Source: Stygiolobus caldivivus
GTDB lineage: Archaea; Thermoproteota; Thermoprotei_A; Sulfolobales; Sulfolobaceae
Length of the DNA stretch: 64,000 nucleotides
Reading direction: 5' to 3'
Assembly: GCF_019704315.1 (NCBI RefSeq)
Contig: NZ_AP024597.1
Coordinates: 1,364,001-1,428,000, forward strand
Shown: positions 8,746 to 37,198 of the stretch, in pieces
Position numbering within the stretch: the stretch's first letter is position 1
Layout of the letters: each line of letters begins with the position of its first letter
Position numbers and translations under genes: made by a program
The notes under the pieces: generated by a model
Seen by the model: only the letters and a program-made list of their open reading frames with translations
Told to the model about the DNA's origin: nothing
Database searches by the model: none

Positions 8746-8748
8746 GTC

Positions 8749-13920: not shown

Positions 13921-14434
13921 CCGGTGCTATCATCTCGCTCAGCCCCTTTATCTTTACTAACGTAGGGGTGAGCCTCTTCTCTACCCTTATCTCGTCTTTA
14001 CTCACCTTGTCCAAACAAGACACGACCGCGTCCGTGACTTTACCCCTCTCTAGGTCGCACTCGGGTATGTCCTTAGAGAGTATGTAAAGTACCGTCGCGG
14101 TAAAAGACGAGTAACCGGACTTACTCCCTTTCCCCACTTCCCTGCACATGTCCTCTTTTCTCCCCGCTCCCCCCGTTTTCCAGTACTTGAAGAAGGTTAG
14201 TAAGTCGTCTTCATTACTCTTTGATAGGTAGAATATGAGAGCCATTTCCAGTCCCCCTTGGAGCATCAGGGAAGGGAAGTCCACTGCCCTCCTCTTATAG
14301 CCGTCTACGCCCCCGTCACACAACCCCTTTAGCTCGTTGAGCTTCCTTATGACCTCTATCTCCATATGACGCGCGTCCTGACCCGTTACTTGTCCCCCAC
14401 TTTGGTCAGTGACCTTTTTTTCCATGCAGTGCAC
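13904..14434 (-). CDS. cmr5: Cmr5, small subunit of the type III-B complex
   Basis: Cmr5 is the small helical subunit that forms the minor filament of the Cmr complex. The 176-aa protein is almost all helical and contains RRAVDFPSLMLQGGLEMALI, the family's conserved F-P-S-L-x-x-x-G-L pattern. It begins 5 bp after cmr4 and overlaps cmr1. The first 25 residues are polar and poorly conserved, so an internal start such as the Met at residue 24 (MEIEVIRKL) cannot be excluded. Confidence 0.9.
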   Translation of the reverse strand: MHCMEKKVTDQSGGQVTGQDARHMEIEVIRKLNELKGLCDGGVDGYKRRAVDFPSLMLQGGLEMALIFYLSKSNEDDLLTFFKYWKTGGAGRKEDMCREVGKGSKSGYSSFTATVLYILSKDIPECDLERGKVTDAVVSCLDKVSKDEIRVEKRLTPTLVKIKGLSEMIAPGDNNE

Positions 14435-14438
14435 CTCC

Positions 14439-15344
14439 CTAAAAGAACGCGACTTTTACGATACCCTTCCCTATGGTCTCCTTCCCGCCCAAGTTGATGT
14501 AAAACCAGTTATTGCCCTTCCCGACCTTCCCTCTATACTCCTTTAACTTCTCGTTAAAGCATCCTCCCTCGCAGGTCTTCTCGCCACAATACTTGTTCTC
14601 CTTAGGTACGGAGGGTATTATCATGGAGAACATCACCGTGCCCTGCGGGAGGTACTCCTCAGTCCACAGTGCCCGGTCCTCTACTACCTTCTTACTTATG
14701 TCGATCTTGTTCCTCGTTACCCTGATATACGAACGTTCTAACACCTCACTGCCCTCAGCGTCGTCAAGTATTACTATACCTTCGTTGAGCTTTTCCGTCA
14801 ACTTGCCCAACCCGGCCACTGCCCCCAAGGCTTTTTTCGCGGTGTCAGACTTCGGCCCCATTAACGGCTTTGTCATACCCGCCACGTCGACTTTCCCCCC
14901 TTCTACACCCGCCATACCAGTGAGCAGGGCAGTGAGGTCGTCTTTATCGCTCAGCCCCAACACGTCTAACGCCCTGTTAATCAGGTACTTGGACGTCACG
15001 TATATATACCCGTGGGTTATACTGGGGACGGGCACGAAAAGCGGTATTAGGTCGGTAACGGTGACCACGCCGCTCCCGGTGTCGTCCCCGCTCTCGGGGC
15101 CGAAAAGGCAGCAGCACAGGGGGGCTTTGTTACAGTTTATCCTCCCGTCATTTATAGCTTGGTCGTAGAGGGAACTGCAGTGGGACTTCAGCGCGCCTTT
15201 AAATGACGAAGAGTATACTATAGGGTAGTTGAAGGGGTCCCTTTGTATAGGCAAGTCTACAACACCGCTAGACCTCCCCGTTCCTACGTGTAAAGGAGAT
15301 ATTACATAGACCAGAAGAGGTATCGGCTTAATACCGTTTGACAT
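14439..15344 (-). CDS. cmr4: Cmr4, Cas7-type backbone RNase subunit of the type III-B complex
   Basis: Cmr4 forms the crRNA-binding backbone and cleaves target RNA every six nucleotides. The 301-aa protein has the family N-terminus SPLHVGTGRSSGVVDLPIQR; D30 corresponds to the catalytic Asp of characterised Cmr4 proteins. It is followed by PIVYSSSFKGALKSH and the CCLFGPESGDD segment. Everything needed for target RNA cleavage appears intact. It is the first gene of the operon; a TATA-like sequence lies 21-31 bp upstream, so the transcript is probably nearly leaderless. Confidence 0.94.
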   Translation of the reverse strand: MSNGIKPIPLLVYVISPLHVGTGRSSGVVDLPIQRDPFNYPIVYSSSFKGALKSHCSSLYDQAINDGRINCNKAPLCCCLFGPESGDDTGSGVVTVTDLIPLFVPVPSITHGYIYVTSKYLINRALDVLGLSDKDDLTALLTGMAGVEGGKVDVAGMTKPLMGPKSDTAKKALGAVAGLGKLTEKLNEGIVILDDAEGSEVLERSYIRVTRNKIDISKKVVEDRALWTEEYLPQGTVMFSMIIPSVPKENKYCGEKTCEGGCFNEKLKEYRGKVGKGNNWFYINLGGKETIGKGIVKVAFF

Positions 15345-20171: not shown

Positions 20172-21257
20172 TTAGTAAGCGAGTCCGTATTGCCTTGTCG
20201 TATACTCATATATGTCAATCTCTCCGATCTTTTCTTTATATGCTTTTTTAACTTCATCATCTTCTTCATAGAGTTCTAATGAGACTAAAGCTGCTATAAT
20301 TATATCATTTATTAAATTCCATAGTAACGAAATCTTATTCATATCGGTGATGTTATGCTCATTAGCTTTAGTTACAAGATAAGAGTAAAGAGAGCCTTCT
20401 TTCAGAACTGATTTGAACTCTTTACTTGATAAAGTCTCATGTATAACCTTAAAGTATTGAGACAATTCTTCAGCCAGAGATACTAAAGTGGAGTTACTAT
20501 ATCCGTAAATCATCCTAAAGGAGTAAGCGCCCAGTAAGTCCATAAGCACGGTGGAGGTGTATGATAATTGATTTTGCTTAGAGATTTTTTTATAATACCT
20601 GACTAAGTTAGAACCGCTCAATGTATACGAGAAGACTAAAGGTGCAAAGAGTGTATTATACATAGTATATGCCCTTCTCTGCTGCCCCTTATTTTTCTTT
20701 ACCTCTTCCGAAGTCGAGTAATCTATAAGTCTTTTAATTTCTGCATAAATATCTGGTAATATTTCTCTGTTTTTAGGGGACTCTAATAATTTCTGAAGTA
20801 ACTTTACCATTTCATTACCGTTACTTGCGAATTTTGAAATTACTACGAATTTATATAAAATTAGTAGTGTGTAAGGAGATATATCCAGCTTTCCTTTTAT
20901 TATATTAACTCTCTTGTTAAACACCACTTTTTCTACTACGACTTTTCTCCATGTTTCTAGGATCGCAAGCTGCAGTGTAATAGCAACGTTATAGGACGGG
21001 GGTAGATTTGTTTGGACATTTAATTCATTTAGTATTTCGTTAGCTTTGTTTCTAAGTTCGTTGTATGCACTAGAAAAATTCTTTATAAATTTTATTTTTT
21101 CAGCCGAGAACAATGGTATATACGAATCTTCTCTAATCATCCTTAGGAGCTCTTTTTTATTAGATTCTAATATTGTTTTATTTGGGTCAGGTATGGTTTC
21201 AACAAGGTCTGTGGAAGTAAGAAAATACTCAAATAATAGGTCACTAGGGCTTGTCAT
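20172..21257 (-). CDS. Helical protein of unknown function, coupled to the P-loop ATPase
   Basis: The 361-aa protein is almost entirely alpha-helical, rich in Leu, Lys, Asn and Ile, with no signal peptide or membrane segment and no catalytic motif that I recognise. It begins MTSPSDLLFEYFLTSTDLVE. Its start codon overlaps the stop of the upstream 589-aa ATPase by 4 bp, so the two are translationally coupled and probably form a complex. Low GC compared with the cmr genes matches the other members of the 20-31 kb cluster. It could be a structural or DNA-binding partner of the ATPase. Confidence 0.75.
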   Translation of the reverse strand: MTSPSDLLFEYFLTSTDLVETIPDPNKTILESNKKELLRMIREDSYIPLFSAEKIKFIKNFSSAYNELRNKANEILNELNVQTNLPPSYNVAITLQLAILETWRKVVVEKVVFNKRVNIIKGKLDISPYTLLILYKFVVISKFASNGNEMVKLLQKLLESPKNREILPDIYAEIKRLIDYSTSEEVKKNKGQQRRAYTMYNTLFAPLVFSYTLSGSNLVRYYKKISKQNQLSYTSTVLMDLLGAYSFRMIYGYSNSTLVSLAEELSQYFKVIHETLSSKEFKSVLKEGSLYSYLVTKANEHNITDMNKISLLWNLINDIIIAALVSLELYEEDDEVKKAYKEKIGEIDIYEYTTRQYGLAY

Positions 21258-23023
21258 TTCTGAGCCACCACTTCTTTTTCGATCTGCCTTTTTATCCTTT
21301 CTATCACCTCTTTAAATCGTTGTTCATAGTAATTAATATCACCTGATATTAGTGAGAATTGATCGGTACTATCCGATGACGCTGATTTTATATACAAAGA
21401 AGCGAATTCGTCTCTATCTAACGGTACATCAATTACTTTTTTGGATATACGTATATTGCTTATCTGCTGTAGTTCGTATATAATTTTAAACATTCCTATT
21501 ATGTTTGCTTCCTCAGGGTGTACAATAAGTATTTTGCAGTCGTTATCCTTCTTACCTTTAGCGAAACCGCAGTTATTAGCCAATATGTCTCCGTAATGTT
21601 TAATAAACCCTTGTCTATACTTAGTCTCTCCCAGCTTAACACTTCTACCCTTATACAAAATTATGGTCGCACCCTTATCTGTCCCTGGATATAATACGAC
21701 TATACCTTCATACCCGTTAGCCTTGACTTCGGAAATAAACTTCTCCTCCGAGGTATTTTTGTCCAATTCCTCAGCCAATTTCCTTAACATAGAGAAAATC
21801 TTATCCTTATTTATTCCAGAAATTTCCTTTGATATATATAACCCGTAGATACCAGATTCAGCTATTTTGGACCGTATATCTTCGAAAAAGTTTTCTAGCC
21901 TGTCGCATATTTTTCCATCTGTGGTTTCACCCATAGTTTTCAGTATTTGGTCTTTTTGTGTAGTTACTATATCAGTGATAACTGCCCTAAGCCTTTCAAA
22001 GAATAAACGGGCGGGCATCTTTAATAAATTACTTAGATAATAGCTGAGGCACTTACTTATGTTCTCCAGCTTGAGTTTCTCGTCGTCCGTGATGAACCCC
22101 TTATATGCTAAGAGTTCCAGTGCTTTTTCATAATATTCCTTAATACTGTCGGACGTATAGGGTGAAAACTTTATTGGTATTGAAAGGTCGTCGGCTGAAG
22201 AAATTATCTTTCCGATAATAGGTGCCGCCGACCTCCTGAACTCCCTCATGGCTTCGCTTGGATAAGCTAACTCTTGTATAGTAAGGACTAATGTAAACGT
22301 ATTAGGGTACCTTTCTAACACTCCACCTTTACTAGACCTTAAACTAGTAAGGAGACTTATTAGTAAATTATTAACTATCTGAAGTTGGTTTAACTGTGTG
22401 GGCACCAGTTGCTCGAACTCGTCTAATATTAGTATGAGCTTTGGACTTATATGGCTCTTTAATATTAATTTTTCAACTAAAACTTCAAATAACCTAGATA
22501 GTTTTTCACTATCTTCTATCTGCATAATTTCTGATTTAATCTCGCTAATAATTTGAGGATCTAAATGACTTATATCAGTAGTTAGTAAAACATCACCTAC
22601 TTCAAAAATATCTTTATAACGGGAGTCTATCGCTAATAATATCGTATAAAGTAGTTCTAAGTCTAACCTAATTGTAGAACTTCTTTTTATCAACGATAGT
22701 ATATCTTCATGAATCTTAGACCCAGAATTTACTTCCCTCGAAACTATATTATGCATCCGCCTTACATTGATGTATATTGCACTACATTCTTTTGTCCTCT
22801 CGCAATAATGTACTGTATAGTAACCTATCCCATAGGTTTTACCTCTACCGTATATTGCCTTGAAAATAGATACACCCGGTGAGAATAATATAGTAGACTC
22901 AAAATTTAACGGCTTCACTAACAATAAGTACTTTTCTTCATCAGGCGAGTTAATTTTTTTAGGCAAATCTTCTGTATATTCTCTCAATAACTGACTAATA
23001 TCAGGTTCTCTTACGGCTTGCAT
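21254..23023 (-). CDS. P-loop ATPase of the sulfur-modification-like cluster
   Basis: The 589-aa protein has a Walker A IYGRGKTYGIG (GRGKT at 59-63) and a Walker B LILILDEFEQL (LDEFE at 200-204), followed by an arginine-containing helical lid. It looks like an AAA/STAND-type or archaeal defence ATPase. The C-terminal region (about 410-540) is a separate alpha/beta domain (GYEGIVVLYPGTDKGATI, KILIVHPEEANIIGMFKI). The KTYGIGYY motif is repeated exactly in the 474-aa ATPase at 29633, so the two are related. A TATA-like CTTATATAGG about 26-35 bp upstream suggests a leaderless message. Probable role: energy-dependent DNA recognition or translocation in a defence complex; this is inference. Confidence 0.85.
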   Translation of the reverse strand: MQAVREPDISQLLREYTEDLPKKINSPDEEKYLLLVKPLNFESTILFSPGVSIFKAIYGRGKTYGIGYYTVHYCERTKECSAIYINVRRMHNIVSREVNSGSKIHEDILSLIKRSSTIRLDLELLYTILLAIDSRYKDIFEVGDVLLTTDISHLDPQIISEIKSEIMQIEDSEKLSRLFEVLVEKLILKSHISPKLILILDEFEQLVPTQLNQLQIVNNLLISLLTSLRSSKGGVLERYPNTFTLVLTIQELAYPSEAMREFRRSAAPIIGKIISSADDLSIPIKFSPYTSDSIKEYYEKALELLAYKGFITDDEKLKLENISKCLSYYLSNLLKMPARLFFERLRAVITDIVTTQKDQILKTMGETTDGKICDRLENFFEDIRSKIAESGIYGLYISKEISGINKDKIFSMLRKLAEELDKNTSEEKFISEVKANGYEGIVVLYPGTDKGATIILYKGRSVKLGETKYRQGFIKHYGDILANNCGFAKGKKDNDCKILIVHPEEANIIGMFKIIYELQQISNIRISKKVIDVPLDRDEFASLYIKSASSDSTDQFSLISGDINYYEQRFKEVIERIKRQIEKEVVAQK

Positions 23024-23476
23024 ATTTTATTGTATGAAGAAATACCTATATAAGCATTGCTGTCCATAGATATTCGTAGACTGATGTTAGCTCATTCAAA
23101 TAATTTTTGTATTAATAGACATATTGTTAAAAGGTAAAATTTAACTTAGTGTATATATATTAAGAATATCTGTAATAAATGTACGCCTAGCTTACCCTTT
23201 AGCTTTCAATATTTTTCTTAGATCGAGTACGTAGAAACCATATATAGTCATTTGTATAATAAATTTATTAAATGGCCTTATCTCTATCGAGAAGTGTAAA
23301 TATAAATTAACCTTTTCGTACAAGCTAAAAATTTTTAGAAATATAAACAGCTAAATGGTAGTGCCACGTCCCCACTCATAAACCTAAGGGCTTTTCAAAT
23401 GAAGTAAATATTACCTTCACTGCTAAAATCTTTAATTACTATAATAATATAATATAATATAAAAAAAGCGAAAAAA
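23024..23476. promoter_or_regulatory. AT-rich intergenic region with the ATPase operon promoter
   Basis: The right part of this stretch is extremely AT-rich (runs of ATAATAT near 23447). The TATA-like element for the 21254-23023 gene lies near 23049-23058. No ORF is supported in between. Confidence 0.5.
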
Positions 23477-24283
23477 TTATAGTAAGGTCCTGCACAGAGG
23501 GCACTTATACGTCCTCTCATATTTCCTCAGATATTCTTCGGGGTTCTTCTGTATATCACGTAGGTATACCCTTTGGTGGTTGTAGAACAACCCCGAACCG
23601 CCCTTCCTGAGTTTTGCTTCTGCCTCCACGAACTTTTGGAAGAACTCCGGGCTTTTCAGTGCTAACACTGCGAAGTCCGCGGGACTCTTATATGCAGAAC
23701 ACCAGCAGTCGTAAGCCTTTCCGTATACCTCGTATAATGGGTTTTTCCTCAGCCCGTGTACCTTTATGTACTCTTCAATATCAGCGTTTGTAAAGTCGAA
23801 GATTATCGCATAACTTAAAGCCCCTATCCTCTCGTTATAGTACAGTTTTGAAGCCTTACTCTTCATCCACGATTCGTCCTTCCTTACACCGGTGACCAGG
23901 ACTATGTCCTTCCTGTCCTTTACGAAGTCCTTTAGTGGCTCAAGCTTTAAGTAGAGTTTACACCACCTCCTCGTGAGACCCGGGAAGCCCTTTTGTTCCA
24001 CAAGGCGGAAGTATTCGTATTTAGGGCCTATGACAGTTAACGGGACCCCCATTTCCTTGGTCACGTCATTCACGTATTCCAGCAAGCCCGGTGTCGCGAT
24101 ACCCGTGTTAATGAATAAGGCCTTGGTCTTTTCGGGGTAAATAGAGTGCGTTAAGTGCAGTGCTACTAGGGAATCCCTACCACCGCTGAACATTACGTAG
24201 ACCTCCTTAAAGCCGGAAAGTATCTTTTCCGCTTCCTCCTTAACTGCAAGCAGCTCCATATCAGTTATCCCATCTACATTCAA
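23477..24283 (-). CDS. PAPS-reductase-family PP-loop protein (DndC/SspD-like)
   Basis: Adenylating PP-loop enzyme: SGGRDS at residues 33-38, followed by RRWCKLYLKLEPLKDF and the VLVTGVRKDES motif of PAPS-reductase/DndC-type proteins. Cysteines RRWC, YDCWCSAY and the terminal KCPLC could bind an Fe-S cluster. The length, 268 aa, is shorter than DndC and lacks its C-terminal extension. Relatives activate sulfate or sulfur chemistry in DNA phosphorothioation (DndC, SspD) or in tRNA/cofactor metabolism; the neighbours point to a DNA-directed role. A TATA-like TATATATAAAT at about 24287-24298 is too close to the first ATG, so the internal Met at residue 9 (MELLAVKEEA, 24259) is the more likely leaderless start. 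Confidence 0.85.
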   Translation of the reverse strand: MNVDGITDMELLAVKEEAEKILSGFKEVYVMFSGGRDSLVALHLTHSIYPEKTKALFINTGIATPGLLEYVNDVTKEMGVPLTVIGPKYEYFRLVEQKGFPGLTRRWCKLYLKLEPLKDFVKDRKDIVLVTGVRKDESWMKSKASKLYYNERIGALSYAIIFDFTNADIEEYIKVHGLRKNPLYEVYGKAYDCWCSAYKSPADFAVLALKSPEFFQKFVEAEAKLRKGGSGLFYNHQRVYLRDIQKNPEEYLRKYERTYKCPLCRTLL

Positions 24284-24351
24284 ATATTTATATATACCGG
24301 AGAGGCTAACATATTTGATAACAGTAGATTATTTTAAATAATAAATGAGAA
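24284..24351. promoter_or_regulatory. Divergent promoters of the PP-loop and nuclease-helicase genes
   Basis: Only 68 bp separate the two divergent genes. A TATA-like TATATATAAAT (24287-24298) faces left. ATTTTAAATAAT (about 24330-24342), 10-20 bp before the TTG at 24352, faces right. Such an arrangement lets both genes be controlled together. Confidence 0.55.
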
Positions 24352-26433
24352 TTGATAATAACTGAATATAGCATCGAGAATCGTGATATCACTGGGCATA
24401 GCTACGTTTTTCGAGGGAAAGAGAAAAGATATATATACCAGAGTTATCTGAAAGTATTATTAGGGGACAAAAAGTTGAACAATGACGAAAAAGTGGATTA
24501 TAGTGAAGTTCAAAGGTATGAAGATTTTCTGACACAGTTACAGCTTCCTTACGCTAAAGAATGTGGAAATTTACTCAAGAATTTAGACTCAAAAGTTTCA
24601 CATTTGCCTAGAGTTACCTCGATAGCCTCCGGCGTCGGGCATTGTATATATGAAGCTAAGTTAAAGGAGTTGTTGGGAGTTAAAGGAGTTATATCCTCCT
24701 CTTTTCCCGGTAAAGGGACAACTGTTCATAAGCTCTTAGCTCTAGCCTCATTACATGTATTTGGGAAAAACGAATTCCCCGGTGACATGGTAAAATTCTT
24801 TAGGGAGTTAGCACGAGAACTTGAAGACGCTAGTATAGAGGATGAAAAAATTTTGACCGCAGTAGACATTTTTTCCTCGTTGCTTTCTGTAAAGGATGAG
24901 CTATTTACAATAATAGGTGTAAAACAAGACAATGTTAGACCAATAGTAGAGCAACAGCTTTACGATTATGACCTACATATGTTGGGTGTACCAGACCTTA
25001 TCTTAGAGGATATAGAGAATAAAAAAGCCGTTGTAGTTGAATGGAAAACTTATAACGTACCTCCGGACAAAGTGAAGAGAAACAGTGTCAGCTCTTACGA
25101 GAAGGCGCAAGTCACAGCATACGCAATGTTAGAAGCCAGAAGATTAGGATATGAAATAACTCCCGATAACTATGATGAACCTTCACTATATGATGCCATA
25201 TCCGGTAGGCTGACCGATGGGAGGATTGAGGACGTTCGAGTCCTCCCAGTAGTTATAAGACCGTGTTTAAAGGAAAACAAGAGATTAACTTTACCCCCTC
25301 ACCCGGTGCTTTCAGATAGAGGAGATATAAGAGATAGATATAAAAAATTCAGAGAAACACTAGGAGAAATATTTGTAACAGCGCGTTATTTAACATACCT
25401 TGTAACCAACTTTGCTCTGTATGGTTATGATAAAAAGACGGACTTTGAAGACTGTTTTAAGCAAGTAGGTAATCAGAATAGAATAGTGTTCCTATCCCCT
25501 CCGCCGTATCCGATACCGAGAGGCAAACCTTCAAGTCAAGAGAAGTCAGGACTTTGTAGATTTTGTCAGGTAACGGATGAATGTAAGTTCTATATAGGAT
25601 CACGCCACATAAACTATTTTCAAAAAATGATGTGGGCCCTGAGATACGCGTCTTTAACTGAAAAAGAGAAAATTATGTGGCCTTTTAGGGCAGTATATCA
25701 ACTGTCCAAGTCTTATAGGAGAGAGAAAGTCATGGAAAGGGTAAAGAAAGGTTCTAACATAATATGGGAAGGGAACGATATAATATTTAAGAACGAGAGT
25801 TCTAAGAACCGTTTCCATATTTTTATGAATAGGAGAGAACGTACATCGTTTAAAATAGATATATTAGACTCTATGTATTATGATAGAGAGACTGATACCT
25901 TTGTAGGAGTGAGGGATATAAGAAATTTTGAAATAAACAAAGGGAAAATACGTAGGCCACACGTCTTAGAGGAGAGTACACCGATTATCTTATATGTAAA
26001 CGATAGAGCGTCGATGATCCCTTTATCCGTAAATATGACGGGTTCTATAGTTGAGGTTAATCCTGATAAAAATAAGGAGGGAAAGGAAACGGTTAAATAC
26101 GTAATTGATGTGCCTTCTTTGGCTCTGTCTTTCCAAAAAATAATCCTGAAAAAATACCTGGAAATCTATCCCGAAATGTTTAAGGATGTGATAATGGTGC
26201 AAGTTGGGGTCGACCTCACTCATATCGACCTTATAGCCCTAGACGCGTTACAGAGGGTCATCGGGGAAAAGATAGAGAAAATACAAGGACTTAAGAAAAA
26301 GGAGAAACTGAAAGGGCTGTTATCGAGCTTAGAAAAAGAGAAAGAAAGGTTAGACTTCGAGTCTGAACTCGGACCGGAAATAATGTCCGAGGACGTGTTA
26401 CGTTATTTCTATAGCCAAGAAAAGGAGGGATGA
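24352..26433 (+). CDS. Cas4/Dna2-like PD-(D/E)XK nuclease with Fe-S cysteines
   Basis: RecB/Cas4-type nuclease of 693 aa. The active-site set is visible in order: H126 (GTTVHKLL), D215 (LGVPDLILED), E230-W-K232 (VVVEWKT) and Q253-x-x-x-Y257 (AQVTAYAML). Four cysteines, C97 upstream and C402, C405 and C411 (LCRFCQVTDECKF) downstream, match the Fe-S cluster arrangement of Cas4, AddB and Dna2. About 280 C-terminal residues follow, with strands and a basic coiled helix (KIQGLKKKEKLKGLLSSLEK), of unknown role. The start is a TTG; the nearby ATG is out of frame. It is followed within 3 bp by an SF1 helicase, so the pair resembles a split Dna2 nuclease-helicase. Confidence 0.85.
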   Translation: MIITEYSIENRDITGHSYVFRGKEKRYIYQSYLKVLLGDKKLNNDEKVDYSEVQRYEDFLTQLQLPYAKECGNLLKNLDSKVSHLPRVTSIASGVGHCIYEAKLKELLGVKGVISSSFPGKGTTVHKLLALASLHVFGKNEFPGDMVKFFRELARELEDASIEDEKILTAVDIFSSLLSVKDELFTIIGVKQDNVRPIVEQQLYDYDLHMLGVPDLILEDIENKKAVVVEWKTYNVPPDKVKRNSVSSYEKAQVTAYAMLEARRLGYEITPDNYDEPSLYDAISGRLTDGRIEDVRVLPVVIRPCLKENKRLTLPPHPVLSDRGDIRDRYKKFRETLGEIFVTARYLTYLVTNFALYGYDKKTDFEDCFKQVGNQNRIVFLSPPPYPIPRGKPSSQEKSGLCRFCQVTDECKFYIGSRHINYFQKMMWALRYASLTEKEKIMWPFRAVYQLSKSYRREKVMERVKKGSNIIWEGNDIIFKNESSKNRFHIFMNRRERTSFKIDILDSMYYDRETDTFVGVRDIRNFEINKGKIRRPHVLEESTPIILYVNDRASMIPLSVNMTGSIVEVNPDKNKEGKETVKYVIDVPSLALSFQKIILKKYLEIYPEMFKDVIMVQVGVDLTHIDLIALDALQRVIGEKIEKIQGLKKKEKLKGLLSSLEKEKERLDFESELGPEIMSEDVLRYFYSQEKEG

Positions 26434-26436
26434 AAG

Positions 26437-28068
26437 GTGTATTTCGTTAAAGACATTATCTTAGAGAACTTACAGAAACCCCCTGTAAAATATAGCCTTA
26501 ATCCCAGCCAAGTACGTGCTGTGGACATAATAAAACGCGGATATGATAACAGAGGAGCTGGACTAGTCCAAGGTCCGCCTGGTACAGGTAAGACCAGTGT
26601 GATAGTGGCAAGCATGACGGATATCTTACATAAATTAGACAAAAACGAAATATTGGTTTACGTCGCACCTACGAATAAGCTAGTCTATGACGTAATGAGG
26701 CATGTAGTCCCTATGCTATCTGAGTTGTATGGCAAAAATTTTGATGATATTACCAAGGCAATTAGGGTCTTCGGATCCGATTTTAACTATAAAGGCGCCT
26801 CTAGAGTTAGGTCGCCCGTTGACAGTGAAGTAAAAGTAATAGTCACTACTGATTACCAAAAATTCTATGTAAACTATAAGTATGCCGTTAATAAGGGCTT
26901 CTCATTCACGTTTTTAGTAGACGAAGCAAGTAAGTCGCCTATATATAGGTTCTTAACTCCGATAGCCTTGGAACTCATAAGGGCTAATAAGCTAAATAAT
27001 GACATCGCGATTGACTCCTTATCGGTCGTAGGAGACCCCATGCAAGCGATTTCTAAAAAATCTATCTATAGAACGCACAGGGAGTACATGCTAATGGTAA
27101 CATTATTAATTAACATGGTCGCTGATAATGATAAAGACTTGGCAGAAGAACTGAAGAGGAACACAGCGAATATGTATATTAGTCTCCTAAACCACAGCCA
27201 CGTTTTATCAAAAATTGATAACTTTACGATGTTAGACACCACGTATAGGTTGCCAGGCCCCTCTCACATGATAATATCGAAAGGATTTTACAATGACCTT
27301 CTCAAGGCCCACAATAACGTTAAAGACAGGTTAACTTATGATGATGAGCTTATAAGGTATTTTAGTGAATGCCTTGACCATGGTGAACTTAAACCTGTCT
27401 CTCAGAAGATACTAGACGCGGTCAGTAACGAGATAGGAATAATATACTTCCGCGTTAGCGGTACAGCATATCAAGACGGTCATGGAGAAAATATTGATGT
27501 TAAAAGGGCTTACACAGCGCTAATAGCCGCGATTGCGGCTTCCGTAGTGACCGGTAAAAGTACTACAATAGTACCGGTATATAAAGACATGAAAAACTAT
27601 ATAAAGTTTATTATGAACATGGATGAAAATATTTCGCCATGTATTGATAAGCTCAAAAAGAAAAATATTAAAATATCGGTAGATACGGCACACGCATTGT
27701 TAGGTGCGGAGGACGAGAACACCGTCCTCATATTAGGCAAAGAATACCTACCTCAAAGCCCAAACATCTTCGACACCGCTACTATGTACTTCATAGAACC
27801 AGAAATATTCAACGTGCAATTCAGCAGACATAAAACTTTATCAATAATAATAGGCGATGTAGAGAGGCTTGTGAGAAATACCAGACGAGTTATCAAGAAC
27901 TACCACTCTAAAAAGGCGAAAGGGCTATATGACGAAATATTATATAGTAACTCCCTGTTGCTGAAGGATTCGGCAGAGGAAATCCTCGATCTGTGTGGTA
28001 TAGAAGTGAAAGGGAATAAAACCATGACGAGGAGCTCTGATATGTGTGAAATCGTCCAAGGTGAGTAA
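26437..28068 (+). CDS. SF1 (UPF1/Dna2-like) helicase
   Basis: Superfamily 1 helicase of 543 aa. Visible motifs: Q-motif-like PSQVRAVD, Walker A QGPPGTGKT (45-53), motif Ia APTNKL, motif II VDEAS (161-165), motif III VVGDPMQ (197-203), and motif VI FNVQFSRHKTLSIIIGD near the C-terminus. The start is a GTG preceded by a strong ribosome-binding sequence (AGGAGGGATG) in the end of the nuclease gene, showing coupled translation. Together with the upstream Cas4-like protein it would make a Dna2-type machine that unwinds and degrades DNA, presumably the restriction arm of the cluster. Confidence 0.9.
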   Translation: MYFVKDIILENLQKPPVKYSLNPSQVRAVDIIKRGYDNRGAGLVQGPPGTGKTSVIVASMTDILHKLDKNEILVYVAPTNKLVYDVMRHVVPMLSELYGKNFDDITKAIRVFGSDFNYKGASRVRSPVDSEVKVIVTTDYQKFYVNYKYAVNKGFSFTFLVDEASKSPIYRFLTPIALELIRANKLNNDIAIDSLSVVGDPMQAISKKSIYRTHREYMLMVTLLINMVADNDKDLAEELKRNTANMYISLLNHSHVLSKIDNFTMLDTTYRLPGPSHMIISKGFYNDLLKAHNNVKDRLTYDDELIRYFSECLDHGELKPVSQKILDAVSNEIGIIYFRVSGTAYQDGHGENIDVKRAYTALIAAIAASVVTGKSTTIVPVYKDMKNYIKFIMNMDENISPCIDKLKKKNIKISVDTAHALLGAEDENTVLILGKEYLPQSPNIFDTATMYFIEPEIFNVQFSRHKTLSIIIGDVERLVRNTRRVIKNYHSKKAKGLYDEILYSNSLLLKDSAEEILDLCGIEVKGNKTMTRSSDMCEIVQGE

Positions 28069-28353
28069 GACTTCAGTAAATTAGCGGTTTACCCATTTAA
28101 AGTAATTAAAAACCTCTCACTCAAAACTAACGAACCACTTGACGAATTTAACCGAACCGGGAACAGCCCCTCTCCTCCATCTGAGGTAAGGGGGCTAGTC
28201 AAAGCTATGGCCACGTCAATCACCACTAAAAAGACCAGTTGACCTCGGAAACCCCTTGTACTGGACTAAAAACTTTATTTGTTGTACATGGAAATTTCAT
28301 ACAGCCTAGAAGGGAGTAAGATAACTGCTAATAGACCAAAGATACATAGGCCT
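28069..28353. other. Convergent intergenic region
   Basis: The region lies between the stops of the helicase and the DndC-like gene. No gene, repeat or clear terminator hairpin is seen apart from short T-rich stretches. Confidence 0.5.
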
Positions 28354-29550
28354 CTAGTTTATCCGGTCTAAAATCTCATAAAAATATTTCTCACCCCTTA
28401 TACTCAAGAAAGCGTAAGCTACGTTGTTTTTTGCCGTATCGGTTATTTTGTCTTTAACATCCTTAGGGACTGTGGCCTCTCTGATCTTTTCTATTGGGAT
28501 CAACCTGTTTTTTCTATCTCTAAGCCCTTTTGCGCTTTTCTCTATCAACAAGTTAGATTTTGCCGGTTCCAGTTCATAGAATACTTCTCTCAACGTGTAA
28601 CTACCCAAGTACTCCTCGTCTAGCCCGTATAGTCTCTTCCCGCTTAATTCCTCCACCACGGGGAACAGTTTGAGCATCACGGCACGGCCTAAAACATTCA
28701 GGGGGCCGAGCTTAGTCCTCCCCCAGTCTTTTCTTAACCTCATCTCTTCAATGTCAGAAACAACCCGGTAAATTATCCTGGCACCCTCTAGGTATAAATA
28801 AGGAGGGGGGAGGTTGTAAATGTTCTTCTGTATCTTTACTAACGTGCAGTGCCAACACCCGTAACGTGCCCGTTTATTCCCGCCATACAGCTCAAATAAA
28901 GGGTTAAGGCCAAACTCTTCTCTAACGTCGTCCAGGAACTCCCATACCTCGTCTAGCCCCCAGTTCCTTATGGGCATAGCTTTTGTCACGTTTTTTACAT
29001 CGACTTTTAAGAAAAATGACGAGTTACAGCTCATCTCACCCGCTCCGCACACGGAATTACTCTTTATAATCCTGGCCCTGCTCGCGGACTCGTCTTCCCT
29101 ATGCCCCGTTAAAAGTACGATTTTTCCGTATCTCTCGACCAAGTCATTCAGAGCGTTTTTATTTGGTAGTACTTTCAGGTGGTTTACACACCACCTGAAG
29201 ATGAAATTCGGAGCAGGATACCCGGCTACTATTACCCTCCAATAAAAGTTGTGCTCTGGCACGGTAAATATCACCTCGCAGTCATTCCCTGTTTCCTTAA
29301 TAAGGCCGCATATTTTGTTCAAAAAAGACCTCGCGTACTCTTCGAGGATATCTAACTCAGAGGAAGTGTCATTGTGTACGAATATAATTTTCTTACCTTT
29401 GACCCCCCTCTCCCTTAACCACTTGTACAATAAGATGGATAATAGGGTTGAGTCCTTACCACCAGAAAACGCGACCGCAAAATTTTTCTCTAATTTCAAA
29501 AGGTCTAGGAGCCTATAAGTCTCAGATATCTTATATTTAAGGGTCTCCAT
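28354..29550 (-). CDS. DndC-like PP-loop sulfurtransferase
   Basis: The 398-aa protein matches DndC features: FSGGKDSTLL (29-34 core), the PAPNFIFRWCVNHLKVLP motif, VLLTGHREDESASRARI, and the paired-cysteine motif RYGCWHCTLV. A long C-terminal region follows (AGEMSC and further cysteines upstream could add Fe-S ligands). DndC hydrolyses ATP and takes part in putting sulfur into the DNA backbone with DndA/IscS, DndD and DndE. None of these partners is seen here, so the reaction in this system is uncertain. It could be phosphorothioation with host IscS or another thio-modification. It lies between the helicase and a second KTYGIGYY ATPase and appears to have its own promoter. Confidence 0.85.
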   Translation of the reverse strand: METLKYKISETYRLLDLLKLEKNFAVAFSGGKDSTLLSILLYKWLRERGVKGKKIIFVHNDTSSELDILEEYARSFLNKICGLIKETGNDCEVIFTVPEHNFYWRVIVAGYPAPNFIFRWCVNHLKVLPNKNALNDLVERYGKIVLLTGHREDESASRARIIKSNSVCGAGEMSCNSSFFLKVDVKNVTKAMPIRNWGLDEVWEFLDDVREEFGLNPLFELYGGNKRARYGCWHCTLVKIQKNIYNLPPPYLYLEGARIIYRVVSDIEEMRLRKDWGRTKLGPLNVLGRAVMLKLFPVVEELSGKRLYGLDEEYLGSYTLREVFYELEPAKSNLLIEKSAKGLRDRKNRLIPIEKIREATVPKDVKDKITDTAKNNVAYAFLSIRGEKYFYEILDRIN

Positions 29551-29632
29551 TCAGTCAGACCTTTATTAATTCCCCTTTCCTAATATTTAATTCTTAGCAC
29601 GTCAAAACTTGGTAGTACTGGATACACATCCG

Positions 29633-31057
29633 TCAAGAGTAATGGACTAGGCCCTTAGTAAGGAATAGAAGATCTTTTCTAGCTAGGGGTAGAAGCTCTA
29701 TTTCGAGGCCTTTAGATTGTTTAGCAGTATCCTCAACCGCAGCCTTTAACCACTTTGTTCTCCTAGGAAACATCGTGATCAGCTTAAAAGTAACACTTTC
29801 CCTGAACATCTCTTCGTTTTCCAAGTCCCTAATGAACTGGCGGACCTTATTGACCGCGTAGAGCAATTCCTTTCTATTTTGTATATACACCAGTGAGTAG
29901 ACAGTGTCTTTAATCATCACAAAGTCAAGAGGTACTCTCGGGTTCTGGTCGACGGCAACGACGGCTTGACCTTTACTCCCTCCGTTTATTGGGTATTTCC
30001 TTAAAAACAATTTCACTAACCTTTTGGACAAGAGGTAGCGGATATCCCTTTTAACATTAGGAGGTATATAAGCATAATTTGATATTAATGTATACGGGTA
30101 GTCATTTATTAGGTGCCTAAACATGTCCAATATTTCAATATAACCCGAACTACTAAAGGAAAGTATTAGGTCCCTTACCCTCTCTATCACCAGTGCAGGT
30201 GATATACGTGATAATATCTCTAATGAAGTTAAAATTCCAGAATTAGGCCTACTCATGAGGGAGTAAAAATTACTGTAATTTTCACCTGAATTGTGTGTTA
30301 ATTTATCTAGTAAGTCCATCATAAAGTTTAGGTAAGAAAACCCATCATAGCTCATTTTACACACGAAACACGTATATTTATCTCCCTGAAAAATTTTGCA
30401 CATAGAGGAGTAGGTTTTTAAATAACGCGAGTCGGCCCAAATGGAATAGGGACCGTTAAACCCTACGTCCTTCAGAAGCCTCGTTAAACGTCCCCTCCTT
30501 ATCCGTGTTAAAATGTATACTTTTAATGTTGGGTATTTCTTGAAAAATCTTACCTTCTCTTTATAGGCTGACACAATTTCGTTTATATCATTCTCTTCAT
30601 TTACATTGTCTATTACCACGTGTACGTTTAACGGTATGCTATATTCCCCTTTCAAAGAAGTCAAGTACTCGAATAACCCTTTTGCGTCGTAGAAAGTGTC
30701 ATGTATTAAACTAATACTGGACAGTTTTACCTTTACTCCTACACGGTTCGCGTTAGTATTACCTCTAGACAACGTCGAGTATATTACGGCTGTATTCTTA
30801 TTGAACCCTCTACTAAAATGCTTATAATACAGATAGTACCCGATACCATAAGTTTTCCCAGACCCTCCTTCCCCGCTGATAATTGCCAACCCGACGCCCT
30901 TGTTGTCCATAACGTTATTTACAATTAGATCATGTGGTTTCATAATAGCATAATCACTTATAGGTATTTTAGAGCATACGTCTAGTGAAGGGGAATTAGG
31001 ACAGATATCCGATATGAGTCTAAGGAATAGAACTTTGTTACTGACAGATAAATCCAT
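29633..31057 (-). CDS. P-loop ATPase related to the one at 21254
   Basis: The 474-aa protein contains Walker A SGEGGSGKTYGIGYY (62-69 core) and a weak Walker B VHVVIDNVNEE, with no clear second acidic residue in the usual place. KTYGIGYY is shared exactly with the 589-aa ATPase, showing common ancestry, but this protein lacks the C-terminal alpha/beta domain and has a CxxC (FVCKM) region instead. It starts after AT-rich promoter sequence (ACTTATTAATATATTTG upstream). Probable role: second ATPase subunit or sensor in the same system, possibly with reduced hydrolysis. Confidence 0.8.
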   Translation of the reverse strand: MDLSVSNKVLFLRLISDICPNSPSLDVCSKIPISDYAIMKPHDLIVNNVMDNKGVGLAIISGEGGSGKTYGIGYYLYYKHFSRGFNKNTAVIYSTLSRGNTNANRVGVKVKLSSISLIHDTFYDAKGLFEYLTSLKGEYSIPLNVHVVIDNVNEENDINEIVSAYKEKVRFFKKYPTLKVYILTRIRRGRLTRLLKDVGFNGPYSIWADSRYLKTYSSMCKIFQGDKYTCFVCKMSYDGFSYLNFMMDLLDKLTHNSGENYSNFYSLMSRPNSGILTSLEILSRISPALVIERVRDLILSFSSSGYIEILDMFRHLINDYPYTLISNYAYIPPNVKRDIRYLLSKRLVKLFLRKYPINGGSKGQAVVAVDQNPRVPLDFVMIKDTVYSLVYIQNRKELLYAVNKVRQFIRDLENEEMFRESVTFKLITMFPRRTKWLKAAVEDTAKQSKGLEIELLPLARKDLLFLTKGLVHYS

Positions 31058-32410: not shown

Positions 32411-33226
32411 TTACTTATAGATAGTAAATATTCTATCGTATATAGACTCAAGGTTCCTATAGTCCCATAACTCTTCTAGGCCTACATTTAAATTAGACGA
32501 TAAAAACCACTTGTACTCATGGGGGCGTTTAACCCATGAGGGAACTACTGGCCTATACACTTTGTCTTTGTCTCGTGACAAATAATAGTAAATAATAGTT
32601 AAGAATTTTTTAATGTTATTTCTAGAGTTAATACTAATTGGAAAATTCTTTAAAAACAATGAAAAGTACTCTTTTGAATAACCAGGAACTGGGTACCCTA
32701 TCATTAATGAATTACTAGGCAAATTAGACAATAGTGTTATCGGATTTAATTGAGTTTGTGAAATATTTTGTTTTGAAAGTAATGCTTGTGTGAGAGTAAA
32801 TGCTGTATATTCCGCTAAGGACTCCTCGCTTAGACTATAATTATAAATCCCGGTGGACGTTCTCCAGTCTTCTATGACATGATGTGATAATTCGTGTAAG
32901 AAGATCTCCATAAGATAAATAGGTCCTATTCCAGGGTATATAGGATTTAAAATTGCAATATCACTCATTACTTCTCTTTCATATATATATATTCCCCAAT
33001 TTTTTCTATCTACCGAATATGGAATATATTTTGCTAATAACCTTCTTTCTCCGTTAGGTTTTTTCTTGTATTCAAATATTTCCCCATTTTCATATACACT
33101 TTCCCAAGACCATTCTGCCCTTATAATCCTCGGCTTCGCCTTTGAACCAGATTCCAACTCTAAATCTTGTAATATTTGCGAGTCTGGTTTCCACTCAGAA
33201 CCTGGCGAAAAATTAAGCTCTAACAT
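32411..33226 (-). CDS. Putative zinc metalloprotease (HExxH)
   Basis: The 271-aa protein has a clear HELSHH motif in LMEIFLHELSHHVIEDW, the zinc-binding HExxH of gluzincin/ImmA-type metalloproteases; SEESLAEYTAFTL about 25 residues later supplies the likely third ligand (E in EESLAEY). There is no signal peptide or membrane segment, so it acts in the cytosol. Proteases of this kind often work as regulators or effectors in defence systems by cutting a partner protein. A functional link with the adjacent HEAT-like protein is possible but unproven. AT-rich composition matches that neighbour. Confidence 0.75.
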   Translation of the reverse strand: MLELNFSPGSEWKPDSQILQDLELESGSKAKPRIIRAEWSWESVYENGEIFEYKKKPNGERRLLAKYIPYSVDRKNWGIYIYEREVMSDIAILNPIYPGIGPIYLMEIFLHELSHHVIEDWRTSTGIYNYSLSEESLAEYTAFTLTQALLSKQNISQTQLNPITLLSNLPSNSLMIGYPVPGYSKEYFSLFLKNFPISINSRNNIKKFLTIIYYYLSRDKDKVYRPVVPSWVKRPHEYKWFLSSNLNVGLEELWDYRNLESIYDRIFTIYK

Positions 33227-33486: not shown

Positions 33487-36222
33487 CTAATACCCTAAGT
33501 ATTGAATTATTCTCTTTGAAGTCTCTTTTTCGATGTCATTATTGCCAAGCACAGTAGATAATACTTTCGCTAATGTTAATGCGTCTTTGACTAAAGTAGA
33601 CCTTTCTCTCAAACTGTCAGCTACGGCTTTTAGCCTATCTGGTGATTTTAGTGCAATATATTCTAGATAGTGAAAAAGCTGAACGGCGTTCTTGAATTCA
33701 TATTTGCCCAACTTGGCTTCTTTTATATATTCCAGTTTTTCGAAGGCCCTGATCATGTTATCTAAGCCATCAACATTCTCAGGTTCATTGAGCGTTATCC
33801 TTTTTTTATTCCTTTCTATAGTAATTATCTCATTTTTCTCTAAGTCACCTTCGTCTAAACTCCCGGTGAAATTAAGCAAAGCTAAGCTCTCCCTGTCTAT
33901 TTTTCTTGCGCTGTTTTTAACAGGAGGGACTAGGACTTTTGTCAGGATATAGAAACTGGAGTAAGGGTCGCTTATCCTGATCCCTGCAATCTTCCCGAGC
34001 CCCTCTATTATAGCTTGAGTGGTCGTAGGGTACAAGTGGTATCTTACCAAGTTTTCTACTGCCTTGTCTTCCTTACCTTCAAGGCCAATAAGTTTCTCGT
34101 ACTTAGTAAATATTGATAATACCCTGCCTAAGACTTCTACATATGTATCAGCTGAAAGGGGCGCTACCCTTATGAAGTTTGAAAACCATGAGGAGACCTC
34201 AGATATTGCCTCGTTTTTAACGTCTTGTAGCAATTTACTCCCTTCAGCCCTTTTCTTCCACGTTATGACCAAGGACTTGTCCAGCGCAATAGTGTTTAAT
34301 ATCGTCGCCATCCTGGTCTTAGCTTTAGTGGTAATCGCGTGTGCTGATATTACCCTGAACTTCGCCCTATACCAACCCGCATATAGGAGGGACACCCAGC
34401 TATCTGTTGTAGAGTGGACATAAAAGGTGACTAGTGTACCGTCATCTTTTAAAAGCTCATAAAACTTGAGGAAGTCATCAGCCATTTTTTCCCTGAAGTA
34501 CTTTAAAGTCCCTATTACACTCTTATAGCGTTTAGTCGTGTTCTTAGGTGCAAACTCTTCCCACTGTGTGTTATAAGGGAAGGGTAGTACTCTCTTTAAC
34601 CAGACGTAAAAGTAGTCGCTTAAGTAAGGCCTGTCATCGGCAAAAGGGACACTCGTAGCCATTAGGTCGACCTTTTCGGTGTTCAAGTCCCTTATATCTA
34701 CCCTGTTAAGGGGGACTACTTTAACTTCAGAAGTAGTGTTGGTCCCTATCAGGTATTCCAGTCCTTTTTTCAAGTGTTCAAACAATTTGTACAATGAACC
34801 GGTAACGTTACTCAGGGGTGAAATTTCTACCCAGTTCCAAGACATCGTATTCCCCCTTACTGAAACTCCCGAAGCAATAAAGCTCCTAGTCGGTTGGACT
34901 AGGGTTAGGAAACTGTTATACCTGATGTGTTCTAGCAGTACCATGGTAAAATACGTGACCACCGCTTCCTTATACTCCTCTTCTCCCTCTATGCGGTTTC
35001 TCAACTCGTTTATCTCGTGGAGGAGCTTGGTGTGGACTATTAACTGCCTTGCGTTAAATAACTTATAAAACTTATCTACTCCCCACGAGTATACTCCGAA
35101 AATACTGACCGGGGGTAGAGGCTCGGTAGGCAACTCAGTCAGGCTTATGTATTTAAGTTTTTGGAATGCCCTCCAAAAGTTTTCCTCGTCTTCATGAGTT
35201 ATCTCCTCAAATTCTAAGTCTTTTCCTTTCCCCTTGAACTTGACCAGTAAGACTGGCCTTCCCTTAGAACCCCTTAGGTCTTCTAGGGATATCTCCCCTT
35301 CTAAGAACTTCTCGTAATTTCTATTCCACTCCCTTATTGCGTCCCTGACGTACCATTCGTCTTTCTCCCCAGACATAACAAAACCACAGTATAGGCACCT
35401 AGCGTACCTGTTGTTAACTTTCACGTTGCCTTCATCCACCTCATAGGTCTTGTACGGGTCGTGGACTATTACCTTATTTTTAGTTACCCTAGCCTTTACC
35501 TTGTCTTTTCCTAGTTCTCTATTTATATCGACTACTTTAATACGTATTCTGTCTTTCTCCTTCACGGGGTGCATAAAGGCCAGTCTGGTGTATGTCCCAG
35601 ACCCCATCCCTGAGCCTTCAGTACCACCCCCCGACCTTAACGCTAATAGCCACCAACTATATACGAGCGGAGTGTAATTACCGCATACTGGGCACTTCAC
35701 CTCCCACGTACCTACAAAACCCGCGTTACCCTGGTAAAGGTCTTTAACTTCTTCCCTAATGCTTTCAACTAACTCTTTACCGTATTTTTGTACATCATTT
35801 AAGAGTTTCTCCCCGTATTTCGGGTAGTCTACGATCGCCTTTAAGAACGTGAACGCTGTCGGTATGGGCTCTGTAGTTATTACCTTTTTAAGTCCTAGAC
35901 GCTTCGCCTCCAACGGGATCGTCCCGAAACTCCCGAAGGGGTCTAGAAAAGTATAATTCCTGAACGGTGCTGTATCCGGGTTATATCTATGCGGTACCTC
36001 TTTGTCGAGTCTTATGATTTTCCTGAACTCCTCTAATTTAAAATCTTCCGGTAACAACGAAGCTGCGAGGAATGCCCTAGCAGATATTAACGGGTCTCTC
36101 CCCCACCAATAAACCATCTCCCAGTAGGAGGGTCTGGCAGGGCCCTTCTCCTTGGCAGCCTTCCTATCGATTTCTGGGAGGAGTAACGAGAAGCTGTCAC
36201 TCTGTATGAACAGCCTATCCAC
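33487..36222 (-). CDS. DUF1156 methyltransferase-family protein with degenerate catalytic motif
   Basis: COG1743-type DNA methylase homolog of 911 aa, paralogous to the genes at 37199 and 40260. The N-terminal signature (RKAAKEKGPARPSYWEMVYW) and zinc ribbon (CPVC at 177-180, CLYC at 276-279) are preserved. However, the SAM-binding motif I is changed from DPFAGFGS to DPFGSFGT (94-101), and the catalytic DPPY/F motif is replaced by SVPF (524-527). The protein is therefore likely unable to methylate adenine and may act as a specificity or assembly subunit. Start is a GTG. It stands alone on the minus strand with its own TATA-like promoter (CTAATTAATTTC about 30 bp upstream). Confidence 0.88.
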   Translation of the reverse strand: MDRLFIQSDSFSLLLPEIDRKAAKEKGPARPSYWEMVYWWGRDPLISARAFLAASLLPEDFKLEEFRKIIRLDKEVPHRYNPDTAPFRNYTFLDPFGSFGTIPLEAKRLGLKKVITTEPIPTAFTFLKAIVDYPKYGEKLLNDVQKYGKELVESIREEVKDLYQGNAGFVGTWEVKCPVCGNYTPLVYSWWLLALRSGGGTEGSGMGSGTYTRLAFMHPVKEKDRIRIKVVDINRELGKDKVKARVTKNKVIVHDPYKTYEVDEGNVKVNNRYARCLYCGFVMSGEKDEWYVRDAIREWNRNYEKFLEGEISLEDLRGSKGRPVLLVKFKGKGKDLEFEEITHEDEENFWRAFQKLKYISLTELPTEPLPPVSIFGVYSWGVDKFYKLFNARQLIVHTKLLHEINELRNRIEGEEEYKEAVVTYFTMVLLEHIRYNSFLTLVQPTRSFIASGVSVRGNTMSWNWVEISPLSNVTGSLYKLFEHLKKGLEYLIGTNTTSEVKVVPLNRVDIRDLNTEKVDLMATSVPFADDRPYLSDYFYVWLKRVLPFPYNTQWEEFAPKNTTKRYKSVIGTLKYFREKMADDFLKFYELLKDDGTLVTFYVHSTTDSWVSLLYAGWYRAKFRVISAHAITTKAKTRMATILNTIALDKSLVITWKKRAEGSKLLQDVKNEAISEVSSWFSNFIRVAPLSADTYVEVLGRVLSIFTKYEKLIGLEGKEDKAVENLVRYHLYPTTTQAIIEGLGKIAGIRISDPYSSFYILTKVLVPPVKNSARKIDRESLALLNFTGSLDEGDLEKNEIITIERNKKRITLNEPENVDGLDNMIRAFEKLEYIKEAKLGKYEFKNAVQLFHYLEYIALKSPDRLKAVADSLRERSTLVKDALTLAKVLSTVLGNNDIEKETSKRIIQYLGY

Positions 36223-37198
36223 ATAGGACTACCAATTGAAGAAATTAATTAGCTTTTCTGTACTCCATGCGAATTCAATGGGCATAATCCCCTCCGTAGA
36301 CATCTAAGCGTTTTACCTCGACTAGCTCTAACGAGTAAACGACGTCCAGTAATAACTCTTTCTATTGAACGTCAAATATGGTGCCAGCTAATATTGTCGC
36401 CTGAGTTAAAAGGACTCGCGTGAAAGTTTAGGGGAGGATCACTTAGATGCCGAACCGGAATTAAAAGAGAGCAGTATTTTGTTCTACCCTAACGTAACTT
36501 AAAGGTCTTCATCAGAGTTCGTGCACCTGCTAAATGGTTTTCATCTAACCATAAAAACTCCTGCTCGTCCATGGTGAGGGTTCGGGTTAAGTAGTTGTAT
36601 GATTTAATGGTCTCGCCTTTTGCTGTGTTTAGTTGGCTTTCGTTATTTGTACTCCTGCGTTTCACGTCTTTCAATAAGTTAGGCACGACCGTAAGAACTT
36701 TATCAGCATTGTCAGAGTTTCGTATTACCAAGGGAAAGTATGACTACTGCTGTTCAAGCGACTTCTGGTATTTATCAAGGACAGTGCCAAAGAAAGGATA
36801 ATATCGTGATTTGGGTATTACCTTGCACTGATATAAGTGGTACACCGTTATACATTTGAATAAGACTACTCATGTGGTCTCGTCCTAGTGAAAGTCGCTG
36901 TCTTTCACGCCCTTAATCCTTATACAATGATGTGAAAACAGCAGATCACACCTTTCAGCTATGAAGGAAAAGAGGGCGTGACACGTCGATATTAAAGGTA
37001 AGGTGTAATGCATTTTATCTAAATAGTATTCCCTAATCTAGCCTAATCTAGGAATATAGTTTCACACCTACGTTTCGTCTGGGCTTTACCCTAGTGGGGC
37101 GTTCACGTGCATTTTTTTGCAAGTTCTCTGCTCCGCCTTTTGTAATTCCCTCTTTTTATTCACACATAAACGGAGGTATAGCTCAATAGTCCACCTCG
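36223..37198. other. Intergenic region between two DUF1156 genes
   Basis: About 1 kb with no intact gene. It holds the promoter of the upstream-facing 33487-36222 gene next to 36223 and a decayed remnant at 36489-36750 of the family also seen at 16101 and 19160. Confidence 0.5.
36489..36750 (-). pseudogene. Third member of the 16101 remnant family
   Basis: On the minus strand, CTTTCCCTTGGTAATACG begins FPLVIRNSDNADKVLTVVPN and continues LLKDVKRRSTNNESQLNTAK and LWLDENHLAGARTLMKTFKL to a stop. The first 60 bp closely match the remnant at 16101 at DNA level. This copy keeps an open frame of about 85 codons and is the best preserved. The parent gene is not recognised; a mobile-element gene is possible. 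It is probably a fragment rather than a functional gene. Confidence 0.5.

Follow-up and report, generated by a model that had tools for sequence, protein, structure and literature searches.

A candidate sulfur-based restriction-modification system in thermophilic archaea, pairing a DndC relative with a split Dna2

Three adjoining genes, encoding a DndC-like PP-loop protein (F), a Dna2-like nuclease (D) and a superfamily-1 helicase (E), recur as a set across Thermoproteota and probably (at a chance that we put at roughly 60%) form a restriction-modification-like defence system in which F sets a sulfur mark on host DNA and unmarked DNA is destroyed by D-E. A broader proposal, held more tentatively and at a little under even odds, is that thermophilic archaea possess a hitherto undescribed sulfur-based restriction-modification system of three genes at minimum, in which a DndC relative marks self DNA without DndD or DndE and a split Dna2 unwinds and shreds unmarked DNA, the split Dna2 being a plug-in effector at the service of methylation-based systems too.

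The window, by which we mean the whole 64,000-nucleotide stretch analysed, comes from an archaeal genome of 2.96 Mb in a single contig, where it occupies bases 1364001-1428000. Its seven ORFs A to G are all open, with the coordinates and strands of Table 1 confirmed by an ORF check; A and B overlap by 4 bp, in line with the claimed coupling of a helical partner to its ATPase, and D and E are spaced 3 bp apart on the same strand. GC content is 30-44% across 19.5-33 kb of the window against 46-48% leftward, and this stretch is flanked by a type III-B Cmr module on one side and by a DUF499/DUF1156/SNF2-helicase system, followed by a CRISPR array, on the other, so that the F-D-E region lies within a defence island. 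A sequence-only reading of this DNA had proposed a candidate sulfur-based defence system of seven proteins in a symmetrical arrangement. That proposal is partly supported: D, E and F recur in nine further loci, which makes the arrangement more than chance, and B recurs in three, while C, G and H are absent there. The symmetry, resting in part on genes that do not recur, is the weak point, and a seven-gene system was rejected given their non-recurrence and the presence of A-B in at most three other loci.

Table 1 Coordinates of the features discussed (positions in the window unless a locus is named)
Feature	Position	Strand	Remark
Type III-B Cmr module	7828-15344		Cmr2/Cas10, Cmr3, Cmr5, RAMPs
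A, helical partner of B, 361 aa	20172..21257	-	Optional module; start overlaps B end
B, P-loop ATPase, 589 aa	21254..23023	-	Optional module; homologues at three other F-type loci
C, CysH/SspD-like PP-loop protein, 268 aa	23477..24283	-	Neighbour rather than demonstrated part
D, predicted Dna2-like PD-(D/E)XK nuclease with Fe-S "iron staple", beta-barrel and stalk, 693 aa	24352..26433	+	Putative core effector subunit
D Fe-S cysteine C98	24643-24645	+
D active site, D215	24994-24996	+
D active site, E230-W-K232	25039-25047	+
D active site, Q253-x3-Y257	25108-25122	+
D Fe-S cysteines, C402-C411	25555-25584	+
E, UPF1/Sen1-like superfamily-1 helicase, 543 aa	26437..28068	+
E Walker A, GPPGTGKT	26572-26595	+
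F, DndC-like PP-loop sulfurtransferase candidate, 398 aa	28354..29550	-	Adjoins D-E in ten loci including the window
F GCWHC	28846-28860	-
F DndC-type specificity loop, GYPAPNFIFRWC	29188-29223	-
F SGGKDS	29449-29466	-
G, second ATPase, KTYGIGYY P-loop, 474 aa	29633..31057	-	Divergently related to B
271-aa protein	32411-33226
DUF499/DUF1156/SNF2-helicase system	33.5-49.4 kb		Three DUF1156 methylases
J, K, L, DUF1156 methylase paralogues	33487-43028
O, SNF2-type helicase of the DUF499-DUF1156 cluster	46710-49418
Metallo-beta-lactamase/RMMBL-type protein	49411-50682
CRISPR array	57080-63964		Repeat contains GTTTGTAGCATTCCCTTGGGGACTTGAAA
Integrase gene	L007:3457-4716
Distant F-clade member and neighbours	L096:2-5450
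~375-aa methylase-like protein	L033:6125-7252, L034:2042-3166, L036:5822-6946, L037:12639-13769, L054:13040-14158, L058:11332-12489
C relatives and neighbours	L121:565-5444, L122:886-2814
DndC-like gene with DEAD-box helicase	L101:877-8469, L104:1376-8957

D was searched in whole genomes, in a phylum-wide sample (n = 398) and then in genomes of the class (n = 229), and its homologues proved patchy, occurring in 11 of the former and 13 of the latter. Loci were fetched for every substantial D match, a weak match of 82 residues in genome G357 being left out. In all, 18 further D-E pairs were recovered from Thermoproteota, and in each of the 19 loci counted with the window E directly adjoins D. 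Ten loci are of the F type (the window, L007, L029, L030, L031, L032, L038, L057, L123 and the Bathyarchaeota contig L010), with a gap of -4 to 1,895 bp between D-E and F. At the other nine (L033-L037, L054, L055, L056 and L058) a DUF1156 methylase and a DUF499 ATPase replace F, the gap between D-E and DUF1156 being 35 to 1,347 bp. None of the 19 loci holds a D-E pair without an F or a DUF1156 neighbour. L123 was located via B, its D having diverged too far for the profile used in the search; this D retains the PD-(D/E)XK family match (PDDEXK_1, 53.9 bits). Our main argument is drawn from this alternation: because F and a DNA methylase take turns beside one effector, F is likely to modify DNA and D-E to be the restriction side, and the pairing of the nuclease-helicase with a DNA methylase elsewhere is as expected for a modification-restriction system. 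Such a swap of modification modules around one effector also provides a naturally occurring test of how marks are read by effectors.

Four of the F-type loci (L029, L030, L057 and L007) contain F, D and E alone of the window's genes, and the core therefore consists of D, E and F. The conservation of gene neighbourhood that had been proposed as a check is seen for this core, whose linkage is kept across families, orders and classes of Thermoproteota. In the D tree, F-type and DUF1156-type proteins fall on opposite sides of one branch in 94% of bootstrap trees; shuffling the partner labels gave a mean of 6.3 changes, with none of 500 shuffles as low as observed, and partner type needs two changes on the E tree. 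The trees of the three core proteins are largely concordant in their subclades (L030 with L057; the window with L007, and L029 near; L031 and L032 with L010). By these trees the three genes have for the most part moved as a unit, and the switch of partner is old. Starting from F instead, its four best relatives in the 229 class genomes, each above 450 bits, are all neighbours of D-E. F-clade or F-like genes without D-E nearby were seen in L009 (318 bits, genome G022), L096 (206 bits) and L011 (Vulcanisaeta, broken frame). At L096 the distant F-clade member adjoins a 443-aa protein and a HerA-like ATPase, which may be another swap of effector. Many of the loci combining DUF1156 with D-E also carry a second methylase-like protein of ~375 aa.

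The description of D as a Cas4-like nuclease with a full active site and four Fe-S cysteines was borne out. D matches PDDEXK_1 at 30.2 bits (Pfam), its RecB/Cas4-type PD-(D/E)XK site is complete (H126, D215, W231-K232 and Q253xxxY257 invariant in 17 homologues, with E230 nearly so) and all four cysteines (C98, C402, C405 and C411) are invariant in these homologues. The best solved-structure match of its AlphaFold2 model (pLDDT 77.7, pTM 0.84) was Dna2 (5eax; Foldseek E 5.2e-7). Comparison of the model with Dna2 structures gave Z 12.0-12.3 over 420-433 residues (for mouse Dna2, Z 12.3 and rmsd 5.9 over 420 residues by VIA-align); Cas4 followed as the next non-Dna2 row (Z 10.6 over 191 residues), AddB reached Z 8.9 over 252 residues, and residues 500-619 taken alone resemble the Sen1 barrel (Z 8.7 over 95 residues). 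A profile search with D against PDB sequences returned no match to Dna2 or any other protein, the Dna2 likeness being one of predicted fold, and D scored 17.6 bits as a Cas4 family member, below the TIGR00372 cut-off of 65 bits. As modelled, D is the counterpart of a Dna2 portion made up of nuclease, Fe-S staple, beta-barrel and stalk. E matches AAA_11 at 42.7 bits (Pfam) and its profile reaches NAM7/UPF1 and SEN1 chains at 1e-12 to 1e-11, so that E is, to judge from its sequence, the helicase motor half of a split Dna2. With D supplying the nuclease-barrel-stalk half and E, a superfamily-1 helicase of UPF1/Sen1 type, the other, the two together would make up a split Dna2; the earlier label of a split Dna2/Cas4-type nuclease-helicase was right, with Dna2 the nearer of the two by predicted fold. 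D and E are separate ORFs in all loci and in this depart from one-chain Dna2.

Two PP-loop proteins had been called in the window, C with SGGRDS and F with SGGKDS, and both exceed the PAPS_reduct cut-off of 22.5 bits (Pfam), at 80.4 and 54.5 bits respectively. F has the FRWC and GCWHC motifs claimed for it, and among PADLOC models it scores far higher to DndC (118 bits) than to BrxP (37 bits) or SspD (36 bits). The SGGKDS PP-loop and GYPAPxxxFRWC are shared by the ten F-clade rows, L038 (GYPVP) and L010 (GYPAS) each showing a single change; in DndC, the GYPAPxxxFRW loop is predicted to read the phosphorothioate motif (PMC12193691). C121, C232 and C235 of F align with the Fe-S ligands C146, C280 and C283 of DndC (DndC sites per PMC12193691), and the fourth DndC ligand, C273, has no positional match in F. 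The C262/C273 pair found in DndC of Rhizobium, Aureimonas and Salmonella is missing from F, and nine of the ten F-clade rows have a cysteine pair of their own near positions 168/175. F scores 106.4 bits against the DndC equivalog model, below its cut-off of 290.4 bits (TIGR03183), and the tree places it outside DndC, in a separate clade that L096 joins. The label "DndC-like" therefore stands for the specificity loop, the PP-loop and three Fe-S cysteines, and fails on the equivalog cut-off and the DndC-only cysteine pair: judged by sequence, F resembles DndC by its parts, yet is not DndC by the family's own tests. No DndD above cut-off was found in the genome, and neither DndD/DndE nor SspB/SspC was matched by PADLOC among the window neighbours or ten neighbours of the minimal loci; a DndE search gave no matches, and its controls were equally silent. 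The genome encodes five Aminotran_5 family genes, a candidate pool for a cysteine desulfurase.

Set against known systems, the F-D-E set resembles Dnd in F's PP-loop, GYPAPxxxFRWC loop and Fe-S cysteines and in being partnered by helicase/nuclease restriction genes; it differs in F's position outside the DndC clade, in the recognition of no DndD, DndE, DndFGH or Pbe proteins, and in an effector that is a split Dna2. PbeABCD likewise pairs with either Dnd or methylases (PMC6459918). With BREX type 4 and SSP (BrxP/SspD), the set shares the principle that a PAPS-reductase-like enzyme replaces the methylase (for BREX type 4, PMC12839542), but no PglZ, BrxC, BrxL, DUF4007 or SspB/C was recognised among the proteins scanned, and F lies nearer DndC. 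Nine D-E loci carry the DUF1156 N6-methylase and DUF499 ATPase of HMA/BR, the DUF499-centred BREX-related systems; known BR systems, however, use SNF2-type helicase-nucleases where D-E combines an SF1 helicase with a Dna2-like nuclease, and the F-type loci other than the window are without an adjacent DUF499 or DUF1156. No relative of the window's SNF2 helicase O was found at D-E loci. D-E is like Dna2 and its bacterial relative Bad in joining a nuclease with a four-cysteine Fe-S staple, beta-barrel and stalk to an SF1 helicase, and unlike them in being two proteins split after the stalk and linked to a sulfurtransferase. Bad, a 5'-3' helicase and ssDNA endonuclease, adjoins a methylase, as D-E does in DUF1156-type loci, and given that neighbour its authors proposed in 2020 that it is part of a new restriction enzyme class (PMC7430649). 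The present finding bears on the question left by that proposal; if true, the split-Dna2 plug-in would establish enzymes of the Dna2 type as restriction effectors of a general class. The open-access full-text literature held no earlier description of the F-D-E set, although a mention elsewhere is possible, and the text of the detailed BR/BREX survey contains neither Dna2 nor UPF1, with SF1 in a reference title only. What is new here is the modification clade and the effector within modification-based restriction.

We infer that F acts on DNA, that it sets a phosphorothioate there and that DNA so marked escapes D-E. In such a scheme, F would use ATP and a [4Fe-4S] cluster to place sulfur, probably as phosphorothioate, on host DNA at a short motif, with a housekeeping cysteine desulfurase as the presumed sulfur donor. 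D-E would assemble as a split Dna2, load on mark-free DNA, unwind it and cut single strands; the mark would spare host DNA, as N6-methylation would in the DUF1156-linked form. D's nuclease might also nick DNA, giving F a route to the phosphate without DndD, DndE or an SspB-like nickase/ATPase. Where present, A-B could act as an optional ATP-driven sensing or loading module that replaces DUF499. Phosphorothioation has been shown in haloarchaea carrying DndCDEA, and a minimal DndC-like system in Thermoproteota would tell which parts of Dnd are dispensable.

The reverse logic, in which the mark set by F is what D-E (alone or together with A-B) needs in a cell in order to work, as for SspE or PbeABCD, in contrast to classical restriction of anything unmarked, is unlikely. 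It draws on the dependence of PbeABCD on host phosphorothioate, without which it is non-toxic (PMC6459918), on that of SspE on phosphorothioate in host DNA (PMC9646914), and on the near-constant company of F and D-E, as would be expected of obligate partners. Against this, members of the D-E family have a methylase as neighbour in nine loci, as would suit an effector that responds to a missing mark, and enzymes of the Dna2/Bad type shred ssDNA in general and have no mark reader that is known. Slightly less probable again is that F thiolates a nucleobase, a tRNA or a cofactor, with D-E a recombination or repair helicase-nuclease that travels along by chance. PP-loop enzymes do include TtcA, TilS, LarE and CysH, to which F scores weakly, and repair is the work of Dna2 and AddAB; a pair of small SAM methylases (PF08241), lacking in the window, adjoins F in L010, L011, L031, L032 and L123 and could point to thio-methyl base chemistry. 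F, however, scores best with DndC by the wide margin given above and retains the DNA-reading loop of DndC, D-E stands beside a DNA methylase where F is absent, and the system is patchy (13/229 genomes), unlike repair or tRNA genes.

There is very little to recommend the view that the window's D-E serves the DUF1156 methylases nearby (33-43 kb) as effector, F being incidental: D-E does pair with DUF1156 in nine loci and the window's three DUF1156 genes lie 5.4-12 kb off, but the window's D groups with F-type D proteins, E and F are 285 bp apart, the DUF499-DUF1156 cluster owns its SNF2-type helicase O, and J, K and L are closest to one another (52-59%) and at most ~35% identical to D-E-linked DUF1156 proteins. 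A cassette of mobile elements, for plasmid maintenance or inter-element competition rather than host defence, is just as improbable: L007 lies within an integrated mobile element (integrase gene ~8 kb from F on the same stretch), so that a role for the element is possible, and the window's GC shift is in keeping, but L030 and L057 have surroundings that look like ordinary chromosome, none of 80 viral DndC-like genes has D, E, A or B nearby, and the idea is compatible with sulfur-marking restriction by F-D-E, as restriction systems often ride on mobile elements. For these viral genes identity tops out at 33%, and none scores above 185 bits with the F profile; no D homologue was found in the viral contigs, phages or plasmids searched.

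Among the remaining genes, A-B is an optional add-on confined to F-type loci. Homologues of B occur in three other genomes of the 398, at F-type loci only (L031, L032 and, weakly, L123), and those of A adjoin B in L031 and F in L032, with a weak candidate by the B-like gene in L123. A relationship of B to DUF499 was considered and dropped, profile comparison giving nothing usable (E 0.039, probability 1%). The structure search that had been suggested as a check found the Dna2 fold for D; the AlphaFold2 model of B is too poor for such a search (pLDDT 51). B and G had been called twin ATPases: both have KTYGIGYY and G matches the B family by profile comparison (E 2.5e-6), a likeness limited to 37 columns over the P-loop. 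The B-like protein of L123 matches G at 6e-5; G has no other homologue in the loci and genomes searched, and H none elsewhere. Whether G belongs to the system is uncertain, and C is unsupported as a part of it, as perhaps are G and H.

On the grouping of the PP-loop proteins, which had been named as a point of refutation, F scores best with DndC models, and C joins two stand-alone proteins adjoining TGT-like genes in the tree (support 100/96). C has no counterpart at any other F-D-E locus, and was rejected as a system part for now on this absence and on the TGT-like neighbours of its relatives in L121 and L122. The genes beside these relatives are of queuine-transferase/DpdA type, L121 also has a HerA-like ATPase, and the two loci may be 7-deazaguanine- or sulfur-related modification clusters. 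L101 and L104 hold a DndC-like gene from outside the F clade with a DEAD-box helicase of ~1,010 aa, a protein of ~800 aa with a weak PLD/DrmC match and one of ~300 aa, a set common to both genomes, possibly a further undescribed sulfur-linked defence system.

Elsewhere in the window, J, K and L are consecutive and one alone adjoins DUF499; this triplication of DUF1156 is unusual, and the paralogues perhaps have different target motifs. The metallo-beta-lactamase/RMMBL-type protein, RNA-nuclease-like, closes the DUF499/DUF1156 gene run, and the 271-aa protein has a metallopeptidase-like HELSHH (HExxH) motif with no family match. The CRISPR array comprises at least 103 repeat copies at a spacing of 65-69 bases and extends almost to the window's end.
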